Shown in pieces: positions 7,205 to 20,981 of a stretch of 64,000 bases of DNA. Both the position numbers and the translations under genes were made by a program. Source of the DNA: Haloferax litoreum (lineage in GTDB: Archaea > Halobacteriota > Halobacteria > Halobacteriales > Haloferacaceae); NCBI RefSeq assembly GCF_009674605.1, contig NZ_WKJO01000001.1:558001-622000 (forward strand), given 5' to 3'. A model generated the notes under the pieces. It searched no databases, was not told the DNA's origin, and worked only from the letters and a program-made list of their open reading frames with translations. The stretch's first letter is position 1. Every line of letters starts with the position of its first letter.

Positions 7205-7348
7205 GAACGGTGGTACACTACCTCGACAAAAAGTCCTTGCGTCGAAACACCCGTGCGAGGGTGGAGTGCAGAGGTCACCCCGCCCCCGGAGAACGTCCGT
7301 GGCTCGTGCCGTGGTCCCGCGGTTCACTGACAGTCCACATCGTAACCG

Positions 7349-7361
7349 TCTTAAGTAACCG
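7349..7361 (+). promoter_or_regulatory. TATA-like promoter of tRNA-Arg
   Basis: The AT-rich GTCTTAAGTAACC lies about 28-40 bases before the mature 5' end of tRNA-Arg, the expected archaeal TATA distance. Confidence 0.5.
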
Positions 7362-7388
7362 TCGAGTACCGAAGAATGCAGCAAGACA

Positions 7389-7461
7389 GTCCTGATAGGG
7401 TAGTGGACTATCCTCCTGGCTTGCGGAGCCAGGGACCGGAGTTCAAATCTCCGTCAGGACG
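7389..7461 (+). tRNA. tRNA-Arg(GCG)
   Basis: The acceptor GTCCTGA pairs with TCAGGAC and the discriminator is G. The anticodon stem CTGGC/GCCAG closes the loop TTGCGGA, giving anticodon GCG for CGC codons. The T arm is CGGAG-TTCAAAT-CTCCG. The gene is followed by partial copies of its own 3' end (see the repeat entry). Confidence 0.93.
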
Positions 7462-7685
7462 TTTTCCTTCCGAACACTAACTTCCGAGAGACCTCCGTGT
7501 CTCTCGGTCTGTTCGGAGTACACGGACTCCAAGGAGAATTGAGCAGGGAGCGACGCGAACAGAGTGAGCAGAGTGACCGAGTTCAAATCTCCGTCAGGAC
7601 ACTCACTGCGTTCGGCCCTGACGTGCTCCACGCTCGCGATGCTCGCGTGGAACTCCGTCAGGACGTTTTCCTTCCGAACACTAAC
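7462..7685 (+). repeat. tRNA-Arg 3'-end copies with GARCNNNGYGA hairpins
   Basis: Two partial copies of the tRNA-Arg 3' end follow the gene. The copy at 7575-7600 matches the T arm and acceptor with one base deleted. The copy at 7653-7685 repeats, base for base, the 33-nt stretch 7449-7481, which covers the tRNA end plus 20 bp of its flank. Between them are hairpins. 7628-7633 CCACGC pairs with 7645-7650 GCGTGG around TCGCGATGCTC. 7592-7598 pairs with 7617-7623 around TCACTGCGTTC. The plus-orientation motif GAACAGAGTGA (7557-7567) has only a weak stem. A separate 9-bp hairpin (CCGAGAGAC/GTCTCTCGG) lies near 7483-7506. No gene is credible here; the minus frame 7443-7832 only translates the repeat. 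Confidence 0.85.
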
Positions 7686-7828
7686 CACAGACAGACTACT
7701 GTCCTCCGCACCGCTCCGGACGCTCGATTCACTCTCTGTTAAACTCACTAGCAGTGTGACTAACCGCACGAAATCACCTCGGTGAGTAGTGCCGTCGCTC
7801 AGCGATGGCGACTCGGAAAAGTTGGGTA

Positions 7829-8050
7829 TCACTCGTCGTCGTACGGGGGTTCAAGCCGCGGGGCGCGTTCGTCGTCGTGTTGGTCGACTGACGACGTGGT
7901 ACGGGAACTCTGTGGGCGGGGTCGAGGGGGCACCTCGGTCCGAGGGGCCGTAGACCATGCTTCGTGGCAGTCAGGACAGTAATTGCCCTTGTACATCCGG
8001 GTGAACGAATAGTTGTCACCACAGCGGATGCAGACCGGTGACTGCGTCAT
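7829..8050 (-). CDS. small zinc-ribbon protein
   Basis: A 73-residue protein beginning MTQSPVCIRCGDNYSFTRMY. CIRC at about residues 7-10 and CPDC at about 26-29 form a four-cysteine zinc ribbon. The remainder is a Pro/Arg/Ser-rich, probably disordered tail ending in acidic residues. The frame is open 16 codons upstream, but the ATG at 8050 places the zinc ribbon normally. It belongs to the abundant class of haloarchaeal small CPxCG-type zinc-finger proteins. The molecular role is unknown. Confidence 0.7.
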   Translation of the reverse strand: MTQSPVCIRCGDNYSFTRMYKGNYCPDCHEAWSTAPRTEVPPRPRPQSSRTTSSVDQHDDERAPRLEPPYDDE

Positions 8051-8345
8051 GGTTCGAAACCTCGGTCGAGGATTTTGTGGGCATTCATGTGCTATCATAC
8101 CTCATATGTCCCCGAGACGCATAAGTATGACCTCAATTTGCAGGGACGTTCCGCGCGCGAGAGACGTTACAGCGGTGCTAACTCAGGATTCGAACAGCGA
8201 GAGGTCCGGACTGGTTCTCGTTCCCGAACCGATGCGGGGGAGCAGTCCACGCTGAAACGCGGCAGATACTGTTGGTGGTTACAGAGTCCCCTCGTCGGGT
8301 CGACAATACAGACGTTTTTACCCGCCAACGGCCGAGACTACCACT

Positions 8346-8963
8346 ATGGACGATTCGCTTCGCGCCGGCGTCGCAATCTACAACGCGGGGGCGTATCGGG
8401 CGGCCCACGGCGCGTGGGAGTCCGTCTGGTTGGGCCTCGAAGACGGAAGCGACGACGAACGGTTTCTCCACGGTCTCATCCAGTTCACCGCCGCCGTCCA
8501 CCACGCCCGAGCGCAGAATTACTCCGGTGCAATAGGGTTGGCCAGCAGTGCTCAGACGTACCTCGATGGCCTCCCGGACGACTACCGCGGCCTCGACATC
8601 GACGGCGTTCGCACTGCCCTGTCACGTCTCGAATCTGACCCCGACATCGTCGTCCGTGACGACCCACCCAGACTCCGTCTCGACGGTCAGGTCGTCACTC
8701 TCGACGACCTCGACTTCGATGGTATCGTCGTCGCCGCCGAGACACTCGCCGAAGAGTTGGAGGGCTACGACGAATCGGTGGTCGAGGACGCAATCGAGTA
8801 CGCTCGGACAGAGGTCTCGAACGGGGCGCAGACGCAGTTCACGGCGATGGTGTTCGACTTCGTGCAAAACGACACACAGCGTGGCCTCGTCTACCAGCGA
8901 ATGACAGAACACGTTCGACTGAAACGACGCCGCGAAGACGACGTCACTGGGTTGTTCGAGTAA
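8346..8963 (+). CDS. DUF309 family protein
   Basis: A 205-residue protein. The N-terminal half has the DUF309 helical core: LRAGVAIYNAGAYRAAHGAWESVW, then FLHGLIQFTAAVHHA. This is a small helical bundle with conserved His and Glu. The C-terminal half, about residues 105-205, is haloarchaea-type and acidic, ending in a basic KRRRED stretch. The biochemical function of the family is unknown. It is convergent with azf, with only 10 bp between the stops. Confidence 0.8.
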   Translation: MDDSLRAGVAIYNAGAYRAAHGAWESVWLGLEDGSDDERFLHGLIQFTAAVHHARAQNYSGAIGLASSAQTYLDGLPDDYRGLDIDGVRTALSRLESDPDIVVRDDPPRLRLDGQVVTLDDLDFDGIVVAAETLAEELEGYDESVVEDAIEYARTEVSNGAQTQFTAMVFDFVQNDTQRGLVYQRMTEHVRLKRRREDDVTGLFE

Positions 8964-8973
8964 GTCGAGCGGT

Positions 8974-9762
8974 TCAGGCTTCGTCCAACGGTTCGCCCTC
9001 GAAGGTGTACTCTGCGGAGTTGTCGACAGGGTCGTAGCCGAGTACCTCGCGGGCGCGGTCGATAGAGTAGTATTTTCGGTCGTTGTCGGAGATGCCGTAG
9101 ACGATTTCGTAGTCGTAGTCGGCTTCCAGACAGCACTCGAAGAGGTGTGCACAGTCGCGGTACGAGAGCCACATCGCCTGTCCGCGTTCGTACTCCCGAG
9201 GTGGGTGGTGTTGCGTGAGGTTGCCGATGCGGACGTTGACGACGGAGATGTCGTGGTGGTCGTGGTAGTACCGGCCGAGTGTCTCACCAGTCGCCTTACT
9301 CACACCGTAGAGGTTGCTCGGACGGGGAAGTTCGTTCCCATCGAGGCGGAACTCGTGGTGCGAACGGTACATGTCCGGCGTCCGGTCTTCGGTCTCGTAC
9401 GCGCCCACGGCGTGGTTCGACGAGGCGAAGGCGAACTTCTCGACGCCCGCGTCGACGGCCGCCCGGTACATCTTCTGCGTCCCGTCGATGTTGTTTCTGA
9501 GTACACTGTCCCACGGTGCCTCTGGACGGGGGTCACCCGCGAGGTGGATGACTGCGTAGGCGCCGTCCATCGCGTTCTTCACGGCAGTTTCGTCCGTGAT
9601 GTCCGCGACGTAGACGTTCGTTCGGTCGACCGACGCTGGAATCTTCTCGTCTGGAAGTGGCTCGCGGTCCAGTAGCCGCCAGTCGTAGGCGTCACCAATG
9701 TGCCCGAGTATCGCCTGGCCGACGCGCCCGCCAGCCCCCGTAAGCAAAACCGGCTGGTCCAT
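8974..9762 (-). CDS. azf: NAD-dependent glucose-6-phosphate dehydrogenase (archaeal zwischenferment)
   Basis: A 262-residue extended short-chain dehydrogenase. From the ATG at 9762 it reads MDQPVLLTGAGGRVGQAILG, a Rossmann GxxGxxG. The active site YGVSK gives the YxxxK pair at about residue 155, preceded by the FASSNHAVG strand with catalytic Ser. Length and sequence match the haloarchaeal enzyme that starts the oxidative pentose phosphate pathway, which is unrelated to bacterial Zwf. A 51-codon upstream extension of the frame is not typical and was dropped. NAD-epimerase paralogs look similar, which limits certainty on substrate. Confidence 0.85.
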   Translation of the reverse strand: MDQPVLLTGAGGRVGQAILGHIGDAYDWRLLDREPLPDEKIPASVDRTNVYVADITDETAVKNAMDGAYAVIHLAGDPRPEAPWDSVLRNNIDGTQKMYRAAVDAGVEKFAFASSNHAVGAYETEDRTPDMYRSHHEFRLDGNELPRPSNLYGVSKATGETLGRYYHDHHDISVVNVRIGNLTQHHPPREYERGQAMWLSYRDCAHLFECCLEADYDYEIVYGISDNDRKYYSIDRAREVLGYDPVDNSAEYTFEGEPLDEA

Positions 9763-9862
9763 TCGGTTCAACGTCCGGCGAGGGAGGCTAAGTAAGGTCC
9801 GGTTCGCGTCTGCGAAGGCATCTAATCGGCGAACTTTAGCCCCGAGCGACATATCTCCGGAC

Positions 9863-10204
9863 ATGGTCACCGACCCACAGACCGCCTGTTTCGAGGCGGG
9901 TATCAAGTTCGGCACGCTCTACCACCAGTTCGCCGGCACGCCGGTCTCACCCGAGAGTGCTCGGAGCCTCGAACAGGCGATGGCGGAGGCCATCGAGAAC
10001 CAACCGTACTGTGAGTCGGTCTCCGTCGATATTCTGGACGACGAACTCGAAGCCGAACTCGCCGACTCGACGGCTGACTACACGGAACTCACGGGGCGGT
10101 TCATGGAAGTCGAGATGCAAATCGAGTACGAAGGCGTCACGGTCCGGACGAAGATGGAGATGGAAGACGGGTACCCGCTGATGAAACTCGTCTCTGTCGA
10201 GTGA
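9863..10204 (+). CDS. mptD: archaeal dihydroneopterin aldolase
   Basis: A 113-residue protein with FEAGIKFGTLYHQFAGTPVS at about residues 9-28, the signature of the archaeal MptD family, unrelated to bacterial FolB. It cleaves 7,8-dihydroneopterin to 6-hydroxymethyl-dihydropterin plus glycolaldehyde on the way to folate or methanopterin-type C1 carriers. The start at 9863 is divergent from azf and only 100 bp away. arfB, which acts in another branch of GTP-derived coenzyme synthesis, lies 570 bp further on. Confidence 0.87.
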   Translation: MVTDPQTACFEAGIKFGTLYHQFAGTPVSPESARSLEQAMAEAIENQPYCESVSVDILDDELEAELADSTADYTELTGRFMEVEMQIEYEGVTVRTKMEMEDGYPLMKLVSVE

Positions 10205-10312
10205 GGGTAGTCGAAGCGGTTCGAGAAATCGGCCACGACCACGACCGAGTCGCACGATTTCACTTTCACTTTCGGGGTCGTTTTTAAACCCCTCCGTGCC
10301 GAACGTGTTGGC

Positions 10313-10756
10313 ATGAGTCAAGCTACCCTCGGCGACGACGAACTGTTCGGAGAGGCGGCGGCGGAAATGCGTGCAGATGTCGAAGAACACCTCGACGAGG
10401 CCCGCGCCGTCCTCCCCGACGCAGACGACGTGTGGAACGCGGACGCTGACAACGTCCTCGGTGTCCTCAACGGCCTCCGGTCGTCCCTGAACGTCGAAGA
10501 CGCTAGCGAACACCTCCGGCAGGCCAAGAAGTGGTTCGTCATCGGCAAACGAGCAGAGGCGTTCGACGACCCGGAGGACCTGGAAGAAGCCATCGCTGAC
10601 CTCGAAGAACTCCTCGAGATGGTCGAAGACGCCCACGAACTCGTCGGCGAACTCACCAACACGATGCCGCAACTCCGTGGCGCACTCGCGGACGCCGCTG
10701 AAGCGGCCGGCGAAGAAGCGGAAGCGGAAGAAGAAGAGGAAGAGGAAGAAGAGTAG
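10313..10756 (+). CDS. DUF5790-type acidic coiled-coil protein
   Basis: A 147-residue, very acidic, mostly helical protein. Residues about 15-125 contain LRQAKKWFVIGKRAEAF and repeated EDLEEAIADLEELLEMVED heptad-like stretches, and the tail is a run of Glu. A T-rich TATA-like element (TCGTTTTTAAACC) lies about 30 bases before the ATG, which suggests a leaderless transcript. It resembles a haloarchaea-only family of unknown function. Confidence 0.7.
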   Translation: MSQATLGDDELFGEAAAEMRADVEEHLDEARAVLPDADDVWNADADNVLGVLNGLRSSLNVEDASEHLRQAKKWFVIGKRAEAFDDPEDLEEAIADLEELLEMVEDAHELVGELTNTMPQLRGALADAAEAAGEEAEAEEEEEEEEE

Positions 10757-10774
10757 CTCGGAGAGACAAGTCCC

Positions 10775-11497
10775 TCACGTGCGGTCACGCGATTCGACCG
10801 CTGCGAGGAGTCTCGCGAGTGCGTCGGCCGCGAGTGACTCCAACTCTTCTCCACGCGCCGCGTCGCCGTCGGCCGGGTCACCGACGACACCGTTTTCGGC
10901 GAATTCGTCCGAGTCGTGCGCGAGATTGACCCCCGAGACCCACTCTCCCCAGCGGTCTGCCGCGCCCTCTCTCGCTTCGTCGATTCGGTCTTCACGGACG
11001 AGTTCGGGATGCGTGTGTCGGAGCAGTGCGGTTTCGAGTGGCCCGCCGTGGCCCATGTCTGTGGAGTGTTCACCGACAGCGTCGAACCACGTGAACGCGA
11101 CGGTGTAGGCGTCGCCCGTCCGCGAGATTCGTCGGCAGACTTCTGCGAGGGCCTCGATGTTACCGCCGTGGCCGTTCACGACGACGACGCGGTCGAATCC
11201 GTGGAACGCGAGCGATTCGATAGTCTCGCGGACGTACGCGCGGAAGGTGTCAGGTGAGACCCACAGCGTTCCGTCGAAGGCGCGGTGTTCCTCGGCGACG
11301 CCGACCGGAATCGTCGGGGCGACGACAACCTCGCCGTCGAACGCCTCGGCACCCGCCTCGGCAATCGAGTCGGCGTTGAGAAAGTCCGTCCCGAGCGGTG
11401 CGTGTGGTCCGTGTTGCTCGGTACTCCCGACGGGGAGGACCGCGAGGTTGGCGTCGAGGTCGGCGACATCGGTCCAGGTGGCCTCAGAGAGTCGCAT
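10775..11497 (-). CDS. arfB: creatininase-family formamide hydrolase ArfB
   Basis: A 240-residue creatininase-fold metal hydrolase. LPVGSTEQHGPHAPLGTDFLNA carries metal ligands Glu, His and Asp at about residues 21-42. VVVNGHGGNIEAL (about 106-118) and DMGHGGPLETALL (about 147-159) complete the active site. In archaea this family includes ArfB, which deformylates the GTP cyclohydrolase III product for riboflavin and F420. mptD nearby supports a coenzyme role, though other creatininase homologues exist. It is convergent with the acidic coiled-coil gene. Confidence 0.8.
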   Translation of the reverse strand: MRLSEATWTDVADLDANLAVLPVGSTEQHGPHAPLGTDFLNADSIAEAGAEAFDGEVVVAPTIPVGVAEEHRAFDGTLWVSPDTFRAYVRETIESLAFHGFDRVVVVNGHGGNIEALAEVCRRISRTGDAYTVAFTWFDAVGEHSTDMGHGGPLETALLRHTHPELVREDRIDEAREGAADRWGEWVSGVNLAHDSDEFAENGVVGDPADGDAARGEELESLAADALARLLAAVESRDRT

Positions 11498-11583
11498 GAC
11501 GGGAGAACGGAGGGGGTGGCCTTAGTGGTAGGCGCTTTCAGCGGGGAGCAGGGGGCGTTGATTCGAGTGGAATCTCGCGTCCG

Positions 11584-13521
11584 TCAGTCGTCGCTGGCGT
11601 CTACTTCGGCCTGCCGGCGCGCGGCGCGTTCGACGAACTCGTCGGGGAGTTGGTCGATTTCCCCCGCCTGAACGCCCCAGAGGTGAGCGTAGAGGCCGTC
11701 TTCGGTCAACAGGTCGTCGTGGGTTCCGCGTTCGACGATACGACCGTCTTCGAGGACGACGATTTGGTCGGCGTCTTTGATGGTCGAGAGGCGGTGCGCG
11801 ATGCTGAACGTGGTTCGGTCGGCAGTGAGCGAATCGAGCGAGCGCTGGATGAGCATCTCCGTCTCGGTGTCCACGTCCGACGTGGCCTCGTCCAAGACGA
11901 GGATTTCGGGGTCTTTGAGGATGGCACGGGCGATAGAGACACGCTGGCGTTGGCCGCCCGAAAGCTTCACCCCGCGTTCGCCGACTTTCGTGTCGTATCC
12001 GTTGGGGAGATTCGAGATGAAGTCGTGGGCCTCGGCGGCTTTCGCGGCCGCGACGATATCCTCGTGGTCGGCGTCGAACGTGCCGTAGGCGATGTTCTCC
12101 TCGACTGTCCCGTAGAACAGGAACGTCTCTTGACTGACGTAGGCGATGGATTCACGCAGACTCGATAGCGCTACGTCACGAACGTCTTGGCCGTCGATAC
12201 TGACACTTCCTTCGTCGGTGTCGTACATCCGCATCAACAACTTGAGGATGGTCGATTTCCCGGCACCGGTCGGGCCGACGAGCGCGAGTGTTTCCCCGCC
12301 GCCGACGTCGAACGAGATGTCTTCGACGATTGGGTCGCCGTCGTCGTAGCCGAACGTCACGTCGTCGTACTCGACGCGGCCCTCGGAGACGACGAGGTCC
12401 GGCGCGTCTTTCTTCTCGGCGAGGCGGGCGGGTTCGTCCATCAGGCCGAAGATGCGCGCACTGGAGGCGTGGGCGCGCTGGTACATGTTGATTATCTGCC
12501 CGAATTGGGCCAGCGGCCAGACGAACTGTTGTGTGAGCAGGATGAACGTGACGAACTCACCGATTTCGAGCGTGCCGGTGAAGGGGCCGGGACCCTCGCC
12601 GTTGATTACCCAGAGGCCACCGACGACGAACGTCAGTGTGAATCCGATGCCGGCGAGGATGCGCAGTGCCGGGAAGAACTTGATTCGAGTGTTGATGGCG
12701 TCCCAGTTGGCGTCGAAGTAATCCATGGAGACGCCATCGACGCGGTCTGATTCGTGGGATTCGGCGTTGAACGTCTTGATGACCTGAATACCGCCGAGGT
12801 TGTTCTCCAATCGAGAGTTGAGTTTGCCGACGGACGAACGCACGTCGGCGTACTTCGGCTGGATGATGTCGACGAACTTCCACGTGAACAGCGCGATGAG
12901 GGGAACCGGAAGCAGGGCGACGAGTGCCAGTTGCCAGTTGTACGAGACGAGGACGACGGCGATGGCGAGGACCATCACGGAGAGACGGAAGAACGAGTTC
13001 ATCCCGTCGTTGAGGAACCGTTCGAGTCGGTTCACGTCGTTCGAGAGGATGGACATCATCTCGCCGGTTTGCTTGTCGGCGAAGAAGTCCATGTTGAGCA
13101 GTTGCATCCGGTCGTACGTGTCGGTCCGGACGGCGTGCTGGATGTTCTGCGCGTAGGAGTTCCATCCCCAATTGCGGAGCCAGTGGAACAGGGCACCGCC
13201 GGTGAAACTGAAGACGATGAGGCCGACGGCGAACATGAACTGGCCGCTTCGCGCCGCGGGAACGAATGGGGCAATCCACGCTTCGGGGAGGACGGGGAAT
13301 CCTGCTGCGAAGGACTTCTCTTGGCGGATGATGGCGTCGATGGCGAGGCCGAGAACGACCGGTGGGACCAAATCCAGCACTCGGGCGGCGATGCTGGCAA
13401 GGACGCCGACGACGAACTGCGAGGTGTTCTCACGCCCGTATTCGGAGAACAGTCGTCGCATCGGGTTGTCGACCCGTTCTCGCTGGTCCTCGAACGGGTC
13501 GTCGTCTGTATCAGGAGGCAC
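11584..13521 (-). CDS. ABC transporter, fused permease and ATPase (exporter type)
   Basis: A 645-residue half-transporter. The N-terminal transmembrane domain (about residues 35-350) has six predicted helices, with the coupling segment DKQTGEMMSILSNDVNRLE. The nucleotide-binding domain follows: GRVEYDDVTFGYDDG, Walker A GPTGAGKST at about 425, Q-loop YVSQETFLF, signature LSGGQRQRVSIARAILKDP, Walker B EILVLDEATSDVDTETE, and H-loop SIAHRLSTI. It should homodimerise as an MsbA/MDR-like exporter of lipids or drugs. The cargo cannot be read from sequence. The gene is monocistronic. Confidence 0.93.
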   Translation of the reverse strand: MPPDTDDDPFEDQRERVDNPMRRLFSEYGRENTSQFVVGVLASIAARVLDLVPPVVLGLAIDAIIRQEKSFAAGFPVLPEAWIAPFVPAARSGQFMFAVGLIVFSFTGGALFHWLRNWGWNSYAQNIQHAVRTDTYDRMQLLNMDFFADKQTGEMMSILSNDVNRLERFLNDGMNSFFRLSVMVLAIAVVLVSYNWQLALVALLPVPLIALFTWKFVDIIQPKYADVRSSVGKLNSRLENNLGGIQVIKTFNAESHESDRVDGVSMDYFDANWDAINTRIKFFPALRILAGIGFTLTFVVGGLWVINGEGPGPFTGTLEIGEFVTFILLTQQFVWPLAQFGQIINMYQRAHASSARIFGLMDEPARLAEKKDAPDLVVSEGRVEYDDVTFGYDDGDPIVEDISFDVGGGETLALVGPTGAGKSTILKLLMRMYDTDEGSVSIDGQDVRDVALSSLRESIAYVSQETFLFYGTVEENIAYGTFDADHEDIVAAAKAAEAHDFISNLPNGYDTKVGERGVKLSGGQRQRVSIARAILKDPEILVLDEATSDVDTETEMLIQRSLDSLTADRTTFSIAHRLSTIKDADQIVVLEDGRIVERGTHDDLLTEDGLYAHLWGVQAGEIDQLPDEFVERAARRQAEVDASDD

Positions 13522-13589
13522 GAAATCGTTTCAGGGCGCGCGCAGGCTAAAGTCCTCGGGTGGGGGAGCCCTCCGCCGGTTTCTGTCGG

Positions 13590-13979
13590 TCAGGCGCCAT
13601 CATCACGGCGCGCCTGCAGCGTCACGATACCCTGTGCAACCGAGAGGATGAAGGTTGCCGCAAGCAGGGCGAGTGAGACGGGCAGTCGGAACTCTGGACG
13701 GCCGACGGCGAGGAAATAGCTGTGCGCGACGACGGCGAACAGACCCGCACCCACGAGGAGGAGTGAGAACTGATAGCCACGTCGCTCTCGCTGGACGAGT
13801 CGACGCAGTCCGTCGAGGAACACGAGGACGACGGCGAGGTTGAGAAGGTTGAACACCTGAATGCCGCCGGGGATGCCGAACAGGGTCCACTCTTCCCAGT
13901 ACGCGGAGTCTATCTCGTGCGTAATCAGCACCGCCACGTTCAGAATGTACAACCGAACCGTCCACCTGTGACTGTCCAT
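13590..13979 (-). CDS. four-helix membrane protein (DUF6713-like)
   Basis: A 129-residue integral membrane protein starting MDSHRWTVRLYILNVAVLITHEIDSAYW. Four hydrophobic segments are evident. The motif HEIDSAYWEEWTLFGIPGG with conserved His, Glu, Asp and Trp is characteristic of a small family of unknown function. The assignment to DUF6713 is from memory. The frame is open 56 codons upstream, but that part is basic and non-hydrophobic. Confidence 0.7.
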   Translation of the reverse strand: MDSHRWTVRLYILNVAVLITHEIDSAYWEEWTLFGIPGGIQVFNLLNLAVVLVFLDGLRRLVQRERRGYQFSLLLVGAGLFAVVAHSYFLAVGRPEFRLPVSLALLAATFILSVAQGIVTLQARRDDGA

Positions 13980-14025
13980 CGTTTGACCACCTGAACGATG
14001 GGGTGCCAGTGAGATGAAGTTGGGG

Positions 14026-14295
14026 TTACAGGAACCGTCCTTCGACTTCGGGGTCGATACCGGCCTCGGAGAGGTCTTGACGGACGCGTTCACGGAGTGG
14101 GTCCGGAACCGTGTCGCGTCCGACTGGGACCGCCGTCTCGCCGTCACCTTTCACTTTCCAGTAGAGGACACAGTTCGACGGTTCGTAGAATTCGATGCTA
14201 TACGCGTCGTCGGCACCGCGGTAGTGGACGCGGGCCGCGAAGTCCTCAGCGAACCACCCTTCGAGGTCGGCCAGCGCATCGACGTATTCGCTCAT
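14026..14295 (-). CDS. conserved haloarchaeal hypothetical protein
   Basis: An 89-residue acidic soluble protein beginning MSEYVDALADLEGWFAEDFAARVHYRG. It looks like a compact alpha/beta fold with the central strand pair YSIEFYEPSNCVLYWKVKG. The upstream continuation of the frame is the antisense of the next gene and was rejected. It lies 41 bp downstream of the DUF192 gene on the same strand, so the two may be cotranscribed. The function is unknown. Confidence 0.7.
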   Translation of the reverse strand: MSEYVDALADLEGWFAEDFAARVHYRGADDAYSIEFYEPSNCVLYWKVKGDGETAVPVGRDTVPDPLRERVRQDLSEAGIDPEVEGRFL

Positions 14296-14336
14296 GGGGT
14301 GACTCTCACAGGCCACGCTTTCGGTCGTTTCGCTTT

Positions 14337-14834
14337 TCAGTCGAGGACGACGCGGTCGCCTTCTTCGATACACGTCTCGTTCGTGTAGCCGTACGGGACT
14401 TCGAGGACGTACTTCCCAGTGCCTCGGTAGCGAGTCAAGTCGGACTCGCTCGTCCCCTCGAGGTCCAATTCGGCGTGGTGAATCTTCGTGATGGTGCCGT
14501 TCTCGGCGACGAAGACGATGTCGAGCGGGAAGGCCATATCGCGCATCACGTAGGCGTAGGTCCCCGGCGAGTCGTGGACGAACCACATCCCCTCGTTCGC
14601 CGCGAGCGACTCGGTGTCGCTCAACCCCGTGAAGCGCTTGGCGTAGGTGTCGGCGACACGGGCATCGACGGTGGCGAGCGTCTCACCCGTCTCGTCGTCG
14701 ACGATGGTCAGCGAGGTTCGCTCGTAGTCGTCGGTCGCCCCCGGTGCGATTGCCGGGTTTGAGAGGTAGACCACGCTGGCGACGACGACGAGCACGGCCG
14801 CGAAGAACACCGCAGTTCGTGCGCGAGAGGTCAT
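14337..14834 (-). CDS. DUF192 family protein, membrane anchored
   Basis: A 165-residue protein with one N-terminal hydrophobic helix (RTAVFFAAVLVVVASVVYLS) that should anchor it outside the cell. The DUF192 beta-barrel follows: RFTGLSDTESLAANEGMWFV, then MRDMAFPLDIVFVAENGTI, ending YVLEVPYGYTNE. The family is widespread and uncharacterised biochemically. Confidence 0.85.
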   Translation of the reverse strand: MTSRARTAVFFAAVLVVVASVVYLSNPAIAPGATDDYERTSLTIVDDETGETLATVDARVADTYAKRFTGLSDTESLAANEGMWFVHDSPGTYAYVMRDMAFPLDIVFVAENGTITKIHHAELDLEGTSESDLTRYRGTGKYVLEVPYGYTNETCIEEGDRVVLD

Positions 14835-14894
14835 TCGTTCGATACAATGGTCGCCGTGAGTCTAAGGGTTCCGGGGAGTCGGTCGAAACAATAA

Positions 14895-14904
14895 CCGTTA
14901 TGAG
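14895..14904 (+). promoter_or_regulatory. TATA-like promoter of tRNA-Val
   Basis: CCGTTATGAG lies about 30 bases before the mature tRNA-Val 5' end. Confidence 0.45.
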
Positions 14905-14929
14905 CGCGAACCGGTTCGGTTGAACTGCA

Positions 14930-15003
14930 GGGCTCGTGGTCTAGTTGGTTATGACGCGGCCTTTACAAGGCTGAGGTCGGTGGTTCGAATCCGCCCGAGC
15001 CCA
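14930..15003 (+). tRNA. tRNA-Val(TAC)
   Basis: The acceptor GGGCTCG pairs with CGAGCCC and the discriminator is A. The anticodon loop TTTACAA gives anticodon TAC for GUA codons. The T arm is GGTGG-TTCGAAT-CCGCC. It is immediately followed by hairpins and partial copies of its own 3' end. Confidence 0.93.
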
Positions 15004-15232
15004 TGTTTCTGCGACGAACGAAGTGAGTCGAGAAACATCACTGAGGGTGGGAGAACCTTGCGGCAACCGAGCGGAGCGAGGTTGACGGAGTGGCTCGAAT
15101 CCGCCCGAGCCCACTTCTGACGACACAACACGACGAGCGGAGCGAGGAGTCTGTGTCGTCTGAGTGGGCGACGAGGATTCGAACCCTACGAGGCGAGCGA
15201 AGCGAGTCTCGGTCCGGTTCGAATCCGCACGA
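15004..15232 (+). repeat. tRNA-Val 3'-end copies with GARCNNNGYGA hairpins
   Basis: Four hairpins share an 11-nt loop class. Loop 15016-15026 GAACGAAGTGA is closed by CGAC/GTCG and TGTTTCT/AGAAACA. Loop 15069-15079 GAGCGGAGCGA is closed by CAACC/GGTTG. Loop 15135-15145 GAGCGGAGCGA lies inside a 9-bp stem, 15119-15127 with 15152-15160. Loop 15195-15205 GAGCGAAGCGA is closed by CGAGGC/GTCTCG. Interleaved are a 23-nt copy of the tRNA 3' end at 15091-15113 (one mismatch), an inverted T-arm piece at 15175-15185 (GGATTCGAACC) and the matching direct piece at 15216-15226. The last two form an outer stem around the fourth hairpin. No gene is credible here. Confidence 0.88.
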
Positions 15233-15297
15233 TGCCTCTCACTCCCCACACCCACCACACGAACCTTTTTAGCCCAAACCGCACCCACTCCCGTCCA

Positions 15298-15693
15298 GTG
15301 ACTCTCACGACTCGCCTCCGCGACAACCCACGGGCGACCCTCGTCGTCCTCGGGTACGCACTCGTCGTCCTCGTCGCCTCGGTGGTCCCGACACCACCGG
15401 GGGGTCTCACACCGAGCGGACCGCTCGGACTCGTCGGACTCGACAAGTGGGTCCACGGGGTCGGATACGCAGTGCTGGGGTTCGGTCTTGCACTCGCCAG
15501 TCGGGCACAGCGGGGGACAGAAATTGGCCACGTTATCGTCGTCGCCAGTGCCTACGGCGCGGGAATCGAACTCGTACAGGCGACGCTTCCGTATCGGTCG
15601 TTCAGCATCGCCGACGCGGGCGCGAACGTTCTCGGAGCGGTACTCGGGGGTCTCCTCTGGTACATCAGCAACAGATTACAAACCGGCAGGTAG
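15298..15693 (+). CDS. VanZ family membrane protein
   Basis: A 131-residue protein from the GTG at 15298. A TATA element (CCTTTTTAG, near 15263-15272) sits about 27 bases upstream, pointing to a leaderless GTG start; the longer ATG frame from 15232 would start inside the tRNA-derived repeat. Four hydrophobic helices and the VanZ motifs LDKWVHGVGYAVLGF and AYGAGIELVQATLPYRSFSIADAGANVLGAVLG are visible. VanZ-fold proteins are small membrane proteins of mostly unknown role. Confidence 0.83.
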   Translation: MTLTTRLRDNPRATLVVLGYALVVLVASVVPTPPGGLTPSGPLGLVGLDKWVHGVGYAVLGFGLALASRAQRGTEIGHVIVVASAYGAGIELVQATLPYRSFSIADAGANVLGAVLGGLLWYISNRLQTGR

Positions 15694-15740
15694 CGTTATC
15701 ATCCCCCCTTGTCTACCACCAGCCGAGAAGTGAGAGGCAC

Positions 15741-16421
15741 ATGGGCACGAAACGACTACTCCGGGCATCTGGGCGGGCTCTCGGACTCGTGGGGGTGGCG
15801 CTCACCGGCGTGTACCTCCTCGCGCTCCGCCCGTGGCACAGGCGCTGGGGAACGACCGACACCGAGGCGACGGGCGCACTTCCGGGCGACGACTTCGTCG
15901 AGGACGCAGACGTAGAGTCGACGCGGGCAATCACCATCGCAGCGCCGTCACGGGCCGTCTGGCCGTGGTTGGTGCAGTTGGGTCAGGGCCGCGGTGGCTT
16001 CTACAGTTACGAACGATTGGAGAGCTTCTTCGGGTTACAGACTCACGACGCCGACCCCACCCAACCGAGTCATCACCATCTCCGCGTCGGCGACGCGATT
16101 CGACTCGGCCCGCTGGGGACGAACGCGCTGACGTTCCGCGTGGCGGTCATCGACCCTGGCCGGTCGCTCGTGTTGAGCGCCCCGGGGTGGGAGACGGGCG
16201 CGAGTCCGGCGACGTGGACGTTCGCGTTGCACGAACTCTCACCGGGTTCGACGAGGCTCGTCGTTCGGTTCCGCGGACGTTCGACGACTCTTCGAGAGCG
16301 TTTGGTCAACCGACTCGTCGTGGAACCCGTGCAATTCGCCATGGAGCGGAAGATGCTCAAGGGCATCCGCAAACGGGCCGAGCGGGCGCGAGCGAGTGCG
16401 ACTGAGGGGCGGCGGCGCTGA
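15741..16421 (+). CDS. SRPBCC/START-like domain protein
   Basis: A 226-residue protein. The N-terminus carries a hydrophobic helix (about residues 11-30, LGLVGVALTGVYLLALRPW), so it is probably membrane-anchored. The rest has an SRPBCC-type helix-grip fold: TRAITIAAPSRAVWPWLVQLGQGRGGFYSYERLESFFGLQ is typical of the family. The C-terminus is basic (KRAERARASATEGRRR). Ligand and function are unknown. It follows the VanZ gene by 47 bp and may share its transcript. Confidence 0.8.
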   Translation: MGTKRLLRASGRALGLVGVALTGVYLLALRPWHRRWGTTDTEATGALPGDDFVEDADVESTRAITIAAPSRAVWPWLVQLGQGRGGFYSYERLESFFGLQTHDADPTQPSHHHLRVGDAIRLGPLGTNALTFRVAVIDPGRSLVLSAPGWETGASPATWTFALHELSPGSTRLVVRFRGRSTTLRERLVNRLVVEPVQFAMERKMLKGIRKRAERARASATEGRRR

Positions 16422-16447
16422 CCCACCGCCGACGGGCGATTCGAAAG

Positions 16448-16470
16448 TCTTTTTCGTCCCCTCCGGCTTC
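16448..16470 (+). promoter_or_regulatory. promoter of tRNA-Phe copy 1
   Basis: TCTTTTTCGTCCCCTCC lies about 20-35 bases before the tRNA. A closely similar element (CGTTTTTTCTCCCCTGC) precedes the second tRNA-Phe at 20282, so the promoter was duplicated with the gene. Confidence 0.55.
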
Positions 16471-16482
16471 GGAAGAGTGCAA

Positions 16483-16556
16483 GCCGCCTTAGCTCAGACT
16501 GGGAGAGCACTCGACTGAAGATCGAGCTGTCCCCGGTTCAAATCCGGGAGGCGGCA
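16483..16556 (+). tRNA. tRNA-Phe(GAA), copy 1
   Basis: The acceptor GCCGCCT pairs with AGGCGGC and the discriminator is A. The anticodon loop CTGAAGA is closed by TCGA/TCGA pairing within ACTCGA...TCGAGC. The sequence is identical over all 74 nt to the tRNA-Phe at 20282-20355. Confidence 0.95.
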
Positions 16557-16640
16557 TTTTCCTGCGAACAACGTGAGCAGTGAAACTGCTCGCGACCGGT
16601 TTGAACCCGGGAGGTGACACTCCTCTGACTCTGCCGAAGA
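16557..16640 (+). repeat. decayed tRNA-Phe 3'-end copy with GARCNNNGYGA hairpin
   Basis: Loop GAACAACGTGA (16566-16576) is closed by CTGC/GCAG, extended by TTTT/GAAA after one mismatch. A second small hairpin GAGCAGT-GAA-ACTGCTC overlaps it. A 19-nt copy of the tRNA T arm and acceptor start follows at 16596-16614, differing by three transitions. It is the shortest and most worn of the four arrays. Confidence 0.75.
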
Positions 16641-16758
16641 GTGTCTTCGATGTGCAATTTTGCGTCCACCGAGATGTGGCTCAACAGCCTCCGAAACTGT
16701 ACTTAATGGGAGCAGAAGCTCTCGTAAGCGACACATAACAATACGTGTTATTTGTCAA

Positions 16759-17982
16759 ATGAGCCTGATGACAGGTCCTTCAGATTCCGACAGCGGACTT
16801 CCGCTTGGTAGACGCTCTGCACTCAAATTGACTGGTGGATTCTTCCTCGCGAGTGCACTCGGCGGACAGGTCGCCGCAAATCAGGGCGACGGTGAGGCGA
16901 CGAAGGTGTACCGCGTGACACAGGGGAGTCGTGAATACGAAATCTCGTTGCTCACGGGTGACACACCCGCCACGGAACTCTACGACCTTCGGATTCCGGA
17001 CCAGTACGGTGGCGACAACGGGGCCACAGACCCTGGGGAGGGTCCATACTACGAGTCGGTTGGGCTCTCGTACCTCTTGGAAGAACAGGAGTCACTGATG
17101 TTCCTCTACGATGGCCCGAACGGAATCAGTCTCGTCGTTCTCCACGGTGGGCCGGGCGACGGCAGTGCTGTCACGTGGCGACTCACGGGCGTCCCCAGCG
17201 GCGCAACGTGGCTCGTGAAAGATGACCTGTACACCTATCCCGACACGGGGGAACAGGCGGTGTCGAACTACGACCGGTGGGACGTAAGCGGAAGCGAACA
17301 CACCATCGACTGGACGTGGGATGGTGGCCGTACGGATGGCGGCGTCCTCGGTTACCTTTCCGGAGAGTTTTCGTTCGCCATCTACCCGGCGTACAACACC
17401 GCCGCCGCGCTCTACGGCGAGTATTTCTCCGGTCTCATCAGCGGGTGGTACGTCCTCACCGGCGGGTGGAACAGTCTGACGCGAGAACCGCTGAACCTCG
17501 AAGAACCGGTCACGATAACCTGTGAGACTGTCGAGGAACCTGAACAGACGCCAGAGACGCCAGACCCGACAGAGACACCCGAAGAAGAGACCCCACAGGA
17601 AGAAGAAGAAAACGAAGAAGACGACGACAAGAGAGACGACCAGAAGAAGGACGAATCTGACTGGAAAGACAAGCGTGACGAGGCCCGTGAGGAGTGGAAA
17701 GAAAAGCGCGACGAGTGGCAAGAGAGCCGAGACGACGGTGACGACGACTGGAAGGAAGAACGCGACGAGGCACGTGAAGAGCGGAAAGAGAAGCGTGAAG
17801 AGTGGCAAGAGAGCCGGGACGAAGAGAAAGAGAGGGACGACGACGAGGATGAAGACGAAGACAAAGACGAGGAGAAAAAAGGGAACGGCAAAGCCAAAGG
17901 CAAGGACAAGGGCAGCGGCAACTCGGGCAAGAAAAAAGGAAAGGGGCGAAGCAAGCGGGGTGACGACGACGATGACGACTGA
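16759..17982 (+). CDS. Tat-secreted protein with long Lys/Glu/Asp/Arg-rich helical tail
   Basis: A 407-residue protein from the ATG at 16759. The N-terminus has a Tat signal (LGRRSALKLTGGFFLASALGG, about residues 16-36). The middle domain (about 45-265) is beta-rich, with aromatic and Gly residues, and has no family I recognise. It is followed by a Pro/Glu/Thr linker and a tail of about 125 residues, almost only K, E, D, R, W and S, with an imperfect repeat around DEAREEWKEKRDEWQESRDD. The tail should form a charged single alpha helix or coiled coil, then ends in Gly/Lys and a poly-Asp tip. Many lysines are unusual for a haloarchaeal secreted protein. Confidence 0.75.
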   Translation: MSLMTGPSDSDSGLPLGRRSALKLTGGFFLASALGGQVAANQGDGEATKVYRVTQGSREYEISLLTGDTPATELYDLRIPDQYGGDNGATDPGEGPYYESVGLSYLLEEQESLMFLYDGPNGISLVVLHGGPGDGSAVTWRLTGVPSGATWLVKDDLYTYPDTGEQAVSNYDRWDVSGSEHTIDWTWDGGRTDGGVLGYLSGEFSFAIYPAYNTAAALYGEYFSGLISGWYVLTGGWNSLTREPLNLEEPVTITCETVEEPEQTPETPDPTETPEEETPQEEEENEEDDDKRDDQKKDESDWKDKRDEAREEWKEKRDEWQESRDDGDDDWKEERDEAREERKEKREEWQESRDEEKERDDDEDEDEDKDEEKKGNGKAKGKDKGSGNSGKKKGKGRSKRGDDDDDD

Positions 17983-18162
17983 TTCGTCCATCAAAACGAC
18001 GCCGGTGGGAAGGCTTCTCCGTCGCTAACTCTCGTGGCAGTTTTTGTGTGCGTGTCGAACCGTGCGGAGACCCAACCGGAGTCTTCTGTCACTGTCGCGG
18101 CAGTTCTCGCTTCGGAAGAACGTTAGTGTCAATTCATTGTCTGTGATGCCGTACCCGAACGT

Positions 18163-18606
18163 ATGGCACACGAAGAAGAGACACACATCGACGCGATACT
18201 GGTACCGACAGACGGAAGCAAGGCAGCGATGCGAGCGGCACGGCAAGCGGTTCGCGTCGCACGAGAAAACGACGCGACGATTCACGTGATGTACGTGATG
18301 GACATGGGCGACGTCGATTACGTGGCCGTTCCGAGCGACATCGCCGAGACCAAAGGCCGACTGACGAAGAAGGGGCGAAAATTCGCAGAGAAGGTCCAAG
18401 CACTCGCCACAGAAGCAAACGTCGAGTGTACCGTCGTCGTTCGGTCTGGAATTCCAGAAGATGAGATAATCGAGTACGCCGACGAAGAGGGCATCGACCT
18501 CATCGTGATGGGAAAACGCGGGCAGCGAGACCCGGACAAACCACTCCTCGGGTCGACGACGAAGCGTGTCGTTGGTCGCACAGACGTGCCGGTTCGCGTC
18601 GTGTAA
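18163..18606 (+). CDS. universal stress protein UspA family
   Basis: A 147-residue cytoplasmic protein with AILVPTDGSKAAMRAARQAV at about residues 11-30 and the ATP-binding signature GKRGQRDPDKPLLGSTTKRV near residues 125-144, which matches Gx2Gx9G(S/T). It therefore belongs to the nucleotide-binding Usp subclass and probably forms a dimer. The start at 18163 follows a purine-rich leader. It sits among stress-type genes (cold-shock pair), but the specific role is unknown. Confidence 0.9.
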   Translation: MAHEEETHIDAILVPTDGSKAAMRAARQAVRVARENDATIHVMYVMDMGDVDYVAVPSDIAETKGRLTKKGRKFAEKVQALATEANVECTVVVRSGIPEDEIIEYADEEGIDLIVMGKRGQRDPDKPLLGSTTKRVVGRTDVPVRVV

Positions 18607-18774
18607 AACTCGATTTGAGTCGTATCTGAACGGTCGCCATCGGACGGTTACGGTAGTTACTGGATCACCCGAACGAGAACAAGACACCGACGAGAGCACG
18701 GTGGTGCACCAATTTCGGTCCTCGTTCCTAGCTTCACAAGACTTATACGTCCGACGTGGTTGAATCCAAAGGCA

Positions 18775-18969
18775 ATGGCGAAAGGTAAAGTTGATTTCTT
18801 CAACGACACTGGCGGTTACGGTTTCATTTCTACTGACGACGCGGACGACGACGTGTTCTTCCACATGGAAGACGTTGGCGGCCCGGACCTCGAAGAGGGT
18901 CAGGAGATCGAATTCGACATCGAACAGGCCCCCAAGGGTCCCCGCGCGACGAACGTCACCCGCCTCTAA
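18775..18969 (+). CDS. cspA: cold-shock domain protein, copy 1
   Basis: A 64-residue single cold-shock OB fold. MAKGKVDFFNDTGGYGFISTDDADDDVFFHMEDV contains the RNP1-like GYGFIS and RNP2-like VFFH nucleic-acid binding motifs. It probably acts as an RNA or ssDNA chaperone. The frame is open five codons upstream, but the twin gene fixes the ATG at 18775. A TATA-like CTTATA lies about 30-35 bases before the start. It is nearly identical to the gene at 19130. Confidence 0.92.
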   Translation: MAKGKVDFFNDTGGYGFISTDDADDDVFFHMEDVGGPDLEEGQEIEFDIEQAPKGPRATNVTRL

Positions 18970-19129
18970 GCAGGTCTTCGTTCACCGCCGGTAACTTCAC
19001 ACACTGACGAACTTTCTTCCGTTTTTCACCCATCGAGAGCGGTGCATGTCGGCGCTAGCTAGTGAATAGTCGGATACGATAGGGGTATGCGGAAGGGTTA
19101 ACCGTCCACAGGGCCGTTGTACAAAGGCA

Positions 19130-19324
19130 ATGGCGAAAGGTAAGGTTGACTTCTTCAACGACACTGGCGGTTACGGTTTCATTTCTACTGACGACGCGGA
19201 CGATGACGTGTTCTTCCACATGGAAGACGTTGGCGGCCCGGACCTCGAAGAGGGTCAGGAAGTAGAGTTCGACATCGAAGACGCCCCCAAGGGCCCGCGC
19301 GCGACGAACGTCAAGCGCCTCTAA
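19130..19324 (+). CDS. cspA: cold-shock domain protein, copy 2
   Basis: A 64-residue cold-shock protein that differs from copy 1 by three residues (I/V, Q/D, T/K, all in the last third). DNA identity starts about nine bases before the ATG (AAAGGCAATGG) and runs through the gene, while the further upstream regions differ. The two copies therefore arose by recent tandem duplication but may have separate promoters. Both RNP motifs are intact. Confidence 0.92.
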   Translation: MAKGKVDFFNDTGGYGFISTDDADDDVFFHMEDVGGPDLEEGQEVEFDIEDAPKGPRATNVKRL

Positions 19325-19506
19325 CTCAGGACTGACTCGTAACCGCAGACGCATCGACTTTTGAGAATTATTTTCTACACACCGAGCGGCCGCACTATCT
19401 CTGCCAAACCAGAATTGCAGACTAACACAATTCTCCATGTCAAACAATGACTCTGAGCAGCCAGAACCTTCATACGTCTCCGCAGTTGTGCATCAAATGA
19501 ACAACA

Positions 19507-20232
19507 ATGACTGCCGAGAGGGAGCGAGAATCCCACCCGAAACCACCCGATTCCCACATCGGTGCGGACCTCTTCGACGAGACGATGGGTCCGGGTTCGT
19601 CGTTCGCCCACCTGTACCGCGGAGAGATACACCGGATGAAGTCCTGGCGAGAGCGACTCGACCGGACGAGCAACTGGGCGATTACGTTGATGGCCGGGAT
19701 CCTCACGTGGTCGTTTTCCGCACAGTCGCACCCGCACTACATCATCTTGCTCGGTCTCGTGACGCTGAGTATCTTCCTCGGAATCGAGTCTCGTCGGTTC
19801 CGTGCGTACGACATCTGGCGGTCCCGCGTTCGGATGTTTCAACAGAACGTGTTCGCGTACGCACTGGACCCAGCGGGCGGCGTCGTCGACGAGAACTGGC
19901 GACAGAAACTGGGTGGTGACTACCGCACGCCGAACATGAAGATACCGTTCGAAGAGGCGGTCGCCCACCGACTCCGGCGGGTATATCTCCCACTGTTCCT
20001 CGTGATGCTCGTCGCGTGGATTATCCAGTTGACGACGTACACGGACCACACGAGTCTCGTCGCCAACGCGGGCATCGGCGGCATTCCCGGCCCCGTGGTC
20101 GTCGCAATCGTGGCAGGATTCTACGCGACCATCGCCGCGATCGCGTTCCGTCCGCGGGACTGGAACGTCAACGGCGAACTCATCCCGAGTGAAGTTACCG
20201 GGTGGGAGCGACCCGAACGCGACGAGGTCTAG
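19507..20232 (+). CDS. DUF2270 family membrane protein
   Basis: A 241-residue protein with about four predicted transmembrane helices: WAITLMAGILTWSFS, YIILLGLVTLSIFLGI, YLPLFLVMLVAWIIQL and GPVVVAIVAGFYATIAAIAF. The segment LGGDYRTPNMKIPFEEAVAHRLRRVYLPLF between the helix pairs is typical of DUF2270. N- and C-termini are charged and probably cytoplasmic. Function unknown. The upstream 180 bases hold no gene. Confidence 0.85.
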   Translation: MTAERERESHPKPPDSHIGADLFDETMGPGSSFAHLYRGEIHRMKSWRERLDRTSNWAITLMAGILTWSFSAQSHPHYIILLGLVTLSIFLGIESRRFRAYDIWRSRVRMFQQNVFAYALDPAGGVVDENWRQKLGGDYRTPNMKIPFEEAVAHRLRRVYLPLFLVMLVAWIIQLTTYTDHTSLVANAGIGGIPGPVVVAIVAGFYATIAAIAFRPRDWNVNGELIPSEVTGWERPERDEV

Positions 20233-20248
20233 CGCGGGAATCCGAAAT

Positions 20249-20268
20249 CGTTTTTTCTCCCCTGCACC
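20249..20268 (+). promoter_or_regulatory. promoter of tRNA-Phe copy 2
   Basis: CGTTTTTTCTCCCCTGC lies 14-33 bases before the tRNA and resembles the element upstream of copy 1. The T run could also serve as a terminator for the DUF2270 gene that ends at 20232. Confidence 0.5.
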
Positions 20269-20281
20269 TCTACCGAGTTGC

Positions 20282-20355
20282 GCCGCCTTAGCTCAGACTG
20301 GGAGAGCACTCGACTGAAGATCGAGCTGTCCCCGGTTCAAATCCGGGAGGCGGCA
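20282..20355 (+). tRNA. tRNA-Phe(GAA), copy 2
   Basis: Identical over 74 nt to the tRNA-Phe at 16483-16556: acceptor GCCGCCT/AGGCGGC, anticodon loop CTGAAGA, discriminator A. Confidence 0.95.
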
Positions 20356-20480
20356 CTTCTGTGATTTCAACCCGACGAGCGACGCGAGTCGCGGTGAAAT
20401 CCAGAATGCGACCCGACCGGATTTGAACCCGAGAAGACGAGCAGAGCGAGTCTTCGCTCGGTTCAAATCCGGGAGGCGGA
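20356..20480 (+). repeat. tRNA-Phe 3'-end copies with GARCNNNGYGA hairpins
   Basis: Hairpin 1 has loop GAGCGACGCGA (20377-20387) closed by CGAC/GTCG and, after a symmetric internal loop, GATTTCA/TGAAATC. Hairpin 2 has loop GAGCAGAGCGA (20439-20449) closed by AAGAC/GTCTT and CGAG/CTCG. It is further enclosed by an inverted T-arm copy (20417-20428) paired with a direct copy (20461-20472). The direct copy belongs to a 21-nt perfect duplicate of the tRNA 3' end at 20459-20479. Minus-strand frames here only translate the repeats. Confidence 0.88.
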
Positions 20481-20585
20481 ACCCGTTCATCTCCTCGAAC
20501 CGGTACAGACGAAAAGAAACCCGAGCGCAAACGCCACCAACGCAGTCGCTCACCAACACAGTCGCCGGAAGAGTAGAGTCCCAGT

Positions 20586-20981
20586 TCAGGCAGTAACGGT
20601 CGATTCCTGCGCGACGTCGCGGGGAGTGACACGTACTTCTAACCCGGACGGCGAGACGGAGACGGTCACGTCGTCGACAGCGCGTTCGTATTCGGCCGTG
20701 TGCTTTCCGGCCCGTGAGATACGGAGTCGCTTCGAGAGGAGACCCGCTTCGGCGAGTGGGTCGAGTTTCCGGTAGGTAGTCGAAAGCGGAAGGTCACACG
20801 ACTCGGCGATTTCGCTCGCAGACAGCGCAGTTCCGTCAGTCGCTTCGAGGATGCACCGGCAGTTTTCGTCGTCGAGTGCGTCGAAGAGGACGTCCATCCG
20901 GTCTTGGTCGTCGACGACGAACTCGTCGGAAGAACTGCGAGTGTGAGAGCGAACGGACGATGGAAGCGATGCCTGACTCAT
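20586..20981 (-). CDS. winged-helix (ArsR-like) transcriptional regulator
   Basis: A 131-residue protein. The winged helix spans about residues 28-90: DVLFDALDDENCRCILEATDGTALSASEIAESCDLPLSTTYRKLDPLAEAGLL, with recognition helix LPLSTTYRKLDPL. The C-terminal strand region (VTVSVSPSGLEVRV) is shared with the regulator at 23060-23446, so the two are paralogues. It is preceded by a TATA box at 21036-21048. The ligand is unknown. Confidence 0.85.
   Translation of the reverse strand: MSQASLPSSVRSHTRSSSDEFVVDDQDRMDVLFDALDDENCRCILEATDGTALSASEIAESCDLPLSTTYRKLDPLAEAGLLSKRLRISRAGKHTAEYERAVDDVTVSVSPSGLEVRVTPRDVAQESTVTA

Follow-up and report, generated by a model that had tools for sequence, protein, structure and literature searches.

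INTRODUCTION

Integron cassette arrays consist of exchangeable units bounded by attC hairpins at a fixed anchor, the 5′ guide of IS608 pairs with the cleavage site 3′ of a hairpin, and the REP/BIME sequences that go with RAYT enzymes are small imperfect palindromes under structural constraint. Here we describe a family of hairpin units behind tRNA genes of the haloarchaeon Haloferax litoreum, seen in a 64,000-nt stretch of its contig NZ_WKJO01000001.1 (positions 558,001-622,000; hereafter the window, the species being referred to as the own genome), whose tips carry the motif GARCNNNGYGA (the GA tip). We read these units, with a probability of about 58 %, as non-autonomous hairpin cassettes aimed at tRNA 3′ ends.

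As in integrons, the units form arrays of exchangeable, hairpin-bounded modules, the difference being that they are gene-less and that a tRNA gene serves as the anchor. Their T-loop complement pairs with the T-loop, which likens them to the IS200/IS605 family (IS608). From REP/BIME sequences they differ in having another tip and in being tied to tRNA genes, not dispersed in the samples seen, and from DDE-type MITEs in that the unit ends at one tRNA-Thr site (CTTTCTACCG.. and ..GCGAGTGA, by reading) are not inverted repeats. The d(GCGNAGC) mini-hairpins are extra-stable; tips such as GCGAAGC recall them, but those of the units are set in longer stems with tandem GA/GA mismatches. Tyrosine-integrase attachment (att) sites in tRNA genes provide a further comparison, with cis-mobilisable elements alongside them.

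Palindrome-associated transposable elements (PATEs) are short and non-coding, have a palindrome near each end and are said to cause no target duplication (PMC3119063). The units resemble PATEs in being non-coding, with a left and a right hairpin near both ends, and differ in that the tRNA-Thr unit closes with a duplicate of the tRNA 3′ end and that units are concentrated behind tRNAs. Archaeal integrases favour tRNA 3′ ends, that of SNJ2 preferring a very short one (PMC8371274). With att sites of the SNJ2 type the units share the tRNA 3′-end copy at the insertion, tandem accretion and limits at about -14 to -22; they differ in their size (~100 bp), in the lack of an integrase or cargo, in hairpins common to several isotypes and in a GA-tip pattern not met in the viral contigs searched.

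RESULTS AND DISCUSSION

Units shared between tRNA isotypes

A single 40-nt cassette, with as many as 3 mismatches allowed, occupies 27 places in 13 of 15 Haloferax genomes, with a tRNA <330 nt upstream at 25 of the 27 and 10 kinds of tRNA represented. By reading, 19 of the 27 copies run directly into the tail of the recipient tRNA type, three into a short or diverged tail, and five into another hairpin or other sequence. Sharing is also seen within the own genome, where one right hairpin stands behind tRNA-Met and tRNA-Asp (39/39 nt) and behind tRNA-Met and tRNA-Ser (43/44), and where the tails of tRNA-Phe and tRNA-Tyr have a left hairpin in common (30/30 nt).

A filled and an unfilled site can be compared at tRNA-Thr(cgt). 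In the own genome the gene passes straight into its flank; two relatives carry extra DNA of 105 bp (G040) and 103 bp (G189), which begins exactly at the tRNA 3′ end and closes with a slightly altered copy of that end. The flanks of the site are 89 % identical over 400 bp upstream, and 86 % (85 nt) and 76 % (75 nt) identical downstream. Both insertions contain the same right hairpin and different left ones. Across the 15 genomes, the relatives among them having been picked for their synteny with the window, tRNA-Val and tRNA-Phe are kept, and the hairpins behind them vary in number, order and type, left and right hairpins exchanging or recombining at both genes (all by reading); even the nearest relative (G261), with 87-95 % identity around these genes, has a different Val array.

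Comparison of genomes shows units placed at exact tRNA 3′ ends, spread between isotypes and kept in hairpin form. The initial annotation had proposed a mobile miniature element or selection, which the cassette behind 10 kinds of tRNA, the tRNA-Thr site and the retained GA/GA mismatches described below all support.

Concentration of stem-closed hairpins at tRNA genes

The window contains 41 copies of the bare 11-mer GARCNNNGYGA where 22.9 are expected (41 was reached in 0/100 shuffles), and the whole own genome has 2110, against 1287 for the reversed pattern. Thirteen of the 41 window copies lie within 250 bp after four tRNA genes (Arg, Val and two Phe) and one more, at 1606, directly behind an interrupted tRNA-Asn copy; the others are scattered. 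Every copy that the initial annotation had listed behind the four genes was present, but the bare motif is not limited to tRNA tails. Its statement that nearly all copies are closed by perfect stems was too strong: six of the ten listed have perfect stems of at least 4 pairs, the stem at 15195 includes one G-T pair (by reading), and the copies at 7548, 7557, 7603 and 15135 are without a perfect stem.

Once a stem of at least 4 perfect pairs is demanded, the association becomes clear. All six such hairpins in the window lie within 200 bp downstream of a tRNA, as do 13 of 16 in 515 kb of the own genome, comprising the window, flanks of ~5 kb to both sides of the remaining listed tRNAs (shorter where one contig ends) and an 80 kb control; P is ~5e-20 if placement is random over the 2 % of sequence concerned. 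An equal density elsewhere had been set beforehand as the outcome that would speak against the association, and the opposite was found. The only GA-tip match of the own genome without a listed tRNA stands behind a tRNA with a long intron, probably tRNA-Trp.

A chance or composition effect of a GC-rich genome might be suspected from the many background copies of the bare 11-mer. We give it practically no credence, since it is refuted by the enrichment of stem-closed hairpins at tRNAs, by a reversed-pattern control of zero (see below) and by single-base shuffles, which yield a mean of 0.15 hairpins matching the pattern against 134 observed in a set of tails that includes pattern-picked loci.

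Anatomy of the unit and arrays in the window

Anatomy was read from the 320 nt downstream of each of the 52 own tRNAs. A full unit measures ~100 bp. It opens with a left hairpin, which starts no more than ~20 nt from the tRNA; a spacer separates this from a right hairpin, in which the T-loop (positions ~52-61) and its complement form the outer arms; a copy of the same tRNA's 3′ end follows. Units are single or in tandem, and many are partial. Although the initial annotation was right that a hairpin family exists, it had missed this larger structure, in which T-loop arms and tRNA 3′-end copies define the unit.

A copy of the last 14 nt (at least 13/14) was found within 320 bp downstream of 20 of the 52 tRNAs, against a mean of 0.05 with swapped ends; three of these 20 derive from whole-tRNA tandem copies. 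Most copies have their left limit at -20 to -24, -16 or -13/-14, counted from the tRNA end. Direct tail copies agree with their own tRNA at 10.55 of 13 positions, and with other tRNAs at 5.69 of 13. The idea that the unit contains a full inverted copy of the tRNA 3′ end was rejected for all but the T-loop and part of the T-stem, because agreement of the complement arm with its own tRNA is confined to the T-loop and, weakly, the T-stem. Some tail copies carry a variant, GTTCACAATC, found 8 times in a set of 192 tails (defined below) on four tRNA types and in none of the tRNA genes of that set, so that the cassette may take part of the T-loop along with it. In the tails of the own tRNA-Ala(ggc), tRNA-Gly(ccc) and tRNA-Arg(cct) the tail copy is of a second type, which starts at -14; the hairpins in front of it have their GA tip on the antisense strand (on the sense strand CTCGCTTCGCTCG or nearly so).

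The arrays of the window are made up as follows.

7389..7461 (+): tRNA-Arg(gcg), anchor of array 1
7548..7576 (+): three GARCNNNGYGA tips that overlap, none closed by 4 or more perfect pairs
7579..7600 (+): direct copy of the tRNA-Arg 3′ end, 22/22 nt
7627..7651 (-): hairpin of 7 bp whose GA tip lies on the antisense strand
7653..7696 (+): second tRNA-Arg copy, from position ~61 through the trailer, 91 % over 44 nt
14930..15003 (+): tRNA-Val(tac), anchoring array 2
15012..15030 (+): left hairpin of Val unit 1
15064..15084 (+): right hairpin of Val unit 1
15090..15113 (+): direct copy of the tRNA-Val 3′ end, 96 %
15116..15163 (+): left hairpin of Val unit 2, 12-nt arms 92 % complementary
15176..15225 (+): right hairpin of Val unit 2 (T-loop complement, GA tip, T-loop)
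15214..15237 (+): distal tRNA-Val 3′-end copy, degenerate (75 %)
16483..16556 (+): tRNA-Phe(gaa) copy 1
16562..16580 (+): left hairpin of Phe copy 1
16595..16619 (+): T-loop complement fused to a tRNA-Phe 3′-end remnant, no right hairpin (by reading)
20282..20356 (+): tRNA-Phe(gaa) copy 2 (last position 20355 according to Rfam)
20357..20406 (+): left hairpin with the GA tip at 20377-20387 and, by reading, the arms ttctgtgatttca / tgaaatccagaa
20417..20472 (+): right hairpin (13-nt T-arm complement, 6-bp stem, GA tip at 20439-20449, T-arm)
20459..20482 (+): direct copy of the tRNA-Phe 3′ end, 96 %

Parts of these arrays recur behind other tRNAs. A hairpin resembling that at 15116..15163 stands behind tRNA-Val(cac) on a Natronorubrum megaplasmid, that at 15176..15225 is 94 % identical over 52 nt to one behind tRNA-Arg(tct), and the stretch at the hairpin of 16562..16580 is the one repeated without mismatch behind tRNA-Tyr, at G000:C1:468009. 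The fused remnant at 16595..16619 may be a deletion scar. The left hairpin at 20357..20406 includes a 4-bp perfect stem at 20373-20391.

Structure of the hairpins

Structure was counted in 192 tails, 93 of them from 80 of the 120 loci picked by the GA tip (among the matches listed) and the others mutually related; since the counts are drawn from related sequences, the p values are a rough guide only. Motif positions 3 and 9, for which the initial annotation had claimed covariation, do pair as purine with pyrimidine in 109 of 117 hairpins (Fisher p 5e-23); for the own genome by itself the count is 15 of 15. Among hairpins with a double mismatch (surveyed at a 2x2 internal site), this was GA/GA in 9 of 19 from own tails and 0 of 21 from the 80 kb control; the fractions were 14/17 in the Val and Phe tails of relatives and 52/65 at pattern-picked loci (among the matches listed). 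These comparisons show that the hairpin form has been kept, with GA/GA mismatches retained and stems that covary. The tandem sheared G-A pairs that the initial annotation had suggested would fit such mismatches.

Loop composition bears on whether the folded strand is DNA or RNA. GNA and GNNA loops closed by C-G are stable DNA loops, and GNRA is a stable RNA loop. Three-base loops are GNA in 55 of 80 cases in the 192-tail set (background 9.6 %), which supports the suggested kinship with DNA mini-hairpins of the GCGNAGC type; a slightly different count gave 18/26 in relatives and 37/48 at named loci (among the matches listed). All 15 four-base GNNA loops are GNYA and none is GNRA, whereas GNRA makes up 70 % of background GNNA (p 1e-8). 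The preference for GNA and GNYA over GNRA hints at a folded DNA strand. DNA folding of the Val array differs little between strands, with z scores of -3.2 for the tRNA strand and -2.3 for the other. As to a K-turn, the three-base bulge that should lie beside the GA pairs is absent by eye, and this candidate was dropped.

The same retained mismatches bear on whether the hairpins are neutral palindromes, produced by template switching at tRNA genes without structural selection and without an enzyme. The T-arms of tRNAs are natural hairpins, and quasi-palindrome correction is able to mimic covariation. Such correction would, however, erase mismatches of the GA/GA kind, so that their retention in own tails, relatives and picked loci, against none in the control, counts against it, as does the restriction of the GA-tip pattern to Halobacteria in a sample of 33 Halobacteria and 163 other Halobacteriota. 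We consider this origin very improbable.

An RNA-level role is the main rival to the mobile-cassette reading. The hairpins would then be part of the tRNA 3′ trailer, acting in transcript ending, in trailer processing or as small RNAs, and their turnover would reflect drift and gene conversion. Tandem GA mismatches with covarying stems make good RNA structure too; 113 of the 114 located hairpins (among the matches listed) lie on the sense strand of the tRNA, and 53 of 134 tips begin within 20 nt of the tRNA. In Haloferax mediterranei, RNA-seq-verified small RNAs are reported from intergenic regions adjoining tRNAs (PMC5852579); several that lie next to tRNA genes (HM16_V, HM18_V, HM27_V and HM43_V among them, table 2 of that paper) could be units of the present kind. 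In Haloferax volcanii, hairpins lie upstream of 503 RNA 3′ ends, and one coding-region hairpin ended 59 % of transcripts in a test (PMC7237163). Against such a role, G-U pairs in the stems are not clearly in excess of A-C, and the GNNA loops, related sequences and not independent ones, never take the RNA-favoured form. Hairpin number and type differ between the own genome and its nearest relative despite the high identity of their flanks, which would be odd for a needed RNA, and Rfam models other than tRNA have no match at 7300-20600. On balance we regard an RNA-level role as rather unlikely, while taking it more seriously than any other rival.

Distribution and the question of attachment-site scars

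The T-loop inverted-repeat pattern was found in 330 of 391 Halobacteria genomes, its reversed control scoring 0 in every row listed. Of 33 Halobacteria, 27 have the version with the GA tip, as against 0 of 163 Halobacteriota from outside that class. A GA-tip scan of 84,980 prokaryote genomes gave at least 120 stretches, and all 120 among the matches listed are haloarchaeal. Again among the matches listed, a tRNA 3′ end precedes 114 of 125 hairpins by <600 bp, with 113 of them on the tRNA strand, and these 114 stand behind tRNAs of 15 amino-acid types. The remaining 11 of the 125 (among the matches listed) comprise one with an Rfam-only tRNA (L306), three behind inserted DNA, and seven at locus ends without a tRNA. 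By reading, the unit at L314 (Halorubrum rubrum) is preceded by the 3′ half of tRNA-Gly and that at L320 (Haloferax marinum) by the last 13 nt of tRNA-Gln, both behind inserted DNA, and at L295 a tRNA-Ala lies 1.8 kb upstream of the hairpin with inserted DNA between.

Inserted DNA of this kind is relevant to the proposal that the units are attachment-site scars, i.e. remnants of viruses or integrative elements using the tRNA 3′ end, or cis-mobilisable remnants with only attL/attR arms. The direct tRNA 3′-end copies, with left limits mostly at -22, -16 and -14, would suit such an origin. So would four loci in which other DNA upstream of the unit ends in a piece of tRNA 3′ end, as expected of tRNA-integrated elements: L320, L314, and two copies of the 40-nt cassette (L346 and L347, in G154 and G243) that lie beyond other DNA ending in the last 13 nt of tRNA-Thr. 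In all four, however, the unit is found beyond the element, towards the chromosome, and is thus not an arm of that element. It looks as if integrative elements had entered the tRNA and displaced the unit outward.

Two scans for the exact GA-tip pattern gave 0 contigs in IMG/VR, a database whose coverage of haloarchaeal viruses is uncertain. A looser scan of IMG/VR gave at least 120 stretches, including a tRNA-Glu locus carrying a unit (L090); among its matches with GC of at least 0.5 or a GA tip, L169 and L186 are not units and the others look chance-like at a glance. The Val array gave no convincing match to phage records, the one obtained being at E 0.2, and among plasmids it matched one megaplasmid, where the array stands behind that replicon's own tRNA-Val. 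No integrase match lies within 4 kb of the listed own tRNAs, and scars would leave both the presence of one cassette behind 10 kinds of tRNA and the kept GA tip unexplained. We therefore judge this origin improbable, less so than neutral palindromes.

We found no description of such tRNA-tail units in the literature searched, a search whose reach mostly excluded subscription papers. The tRNA-tail hairpin units look like tiny mobile DNA that is widespread and apparently undescribed.

Proposed mechanism and its weighing

If the units are hairpin cassettes aimed at tRNA 3′ ends, the folded tip might be a single-stranded DNA hairpin (GNA loop, tandem sheared G-A pairs) that a trans-acting recombinase or HUH-type enzyme recognises. 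Alternatively, the cassettes may spread by recombination or template switching at the T-loop identity that tRNA genes share. In either case the recipient-specific part may begin inside the T-loop. A bolder version, which we hold only tentatively and think unlikely as it stands, is that of a class-wide haloarchaeal mobile system: gene-less single-stranded DNA hairpin cassettes would have the universal T-loop as landing site, and an enzyme acting in trans would fold and insert them, rebuilding the tRNA tail each time. Any tRNA would then take any cassette and arrays would grow, making a gene-free analogue of the integron with tRNA genes as platforms.

Several points weigh against the cassette reading, in addition to the Haloferax RNA data given above. 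The 14 PF00589 integrase matches of the own genome include none within 4 kb of a listed tRNA. At tRNA-Thr, gain in the two relatives and precise loss in the own lineage are equally possible, and some of the turnover could be due to horizontal exchange combined with homologous recombination from one tRNA tail to another. Three of the 16 stem-closed hairpins in the 515 kb sit away from tRNAs. The complement arm follows its own tRNA weakly beyond the T-loop, with 3.29 of 5 T-stem positions (other tRNAs 2.51) and 2.11 of 7 acceptor positions (others 2.04). In the own genome, just 4 of 9 three-base loops are GNA. Finally, stem wobbles do not separate RNA from DNA, at 44 G-T and 30 A-C in 1869 cells (families of <6 sequences and hairpins without a GA-like tip having been dropped) and 4 and 5, respectively, in the interior.

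If the cassette reading is true, most haloarchaea, including Haloferax species, carry an apparently undescribed set of hairpins at their tRNA genes, made of mobile units of very small size that target a near-universal sequence, and offer a natural case of folded GNA/tandem-GA tips that is apparently under selection. This would bear on the evolution of tRNA genes, on the use of tRNA ends by integrative elements and on the annotation of tRNA-flanking 'small RNAs'.

Two observations concern the surroundings. Just before the window, G000:C1:528063-552183 holds, in 25 kb, five matches to integrases, one of which falls short of the family cut-off, and is likely an integration hot spot beside the window. 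Within the window, tRNA-Asn has a second copy at 1639-1742 (-), ~104 nt long and enlarged by an extra stretch close to the anticodon; RF00005 scores it as a tRNA, whereas ARAGORN by default lists only the copy at 1870-1943, and it is possibly an intron-bearing or interrupted duplicate.

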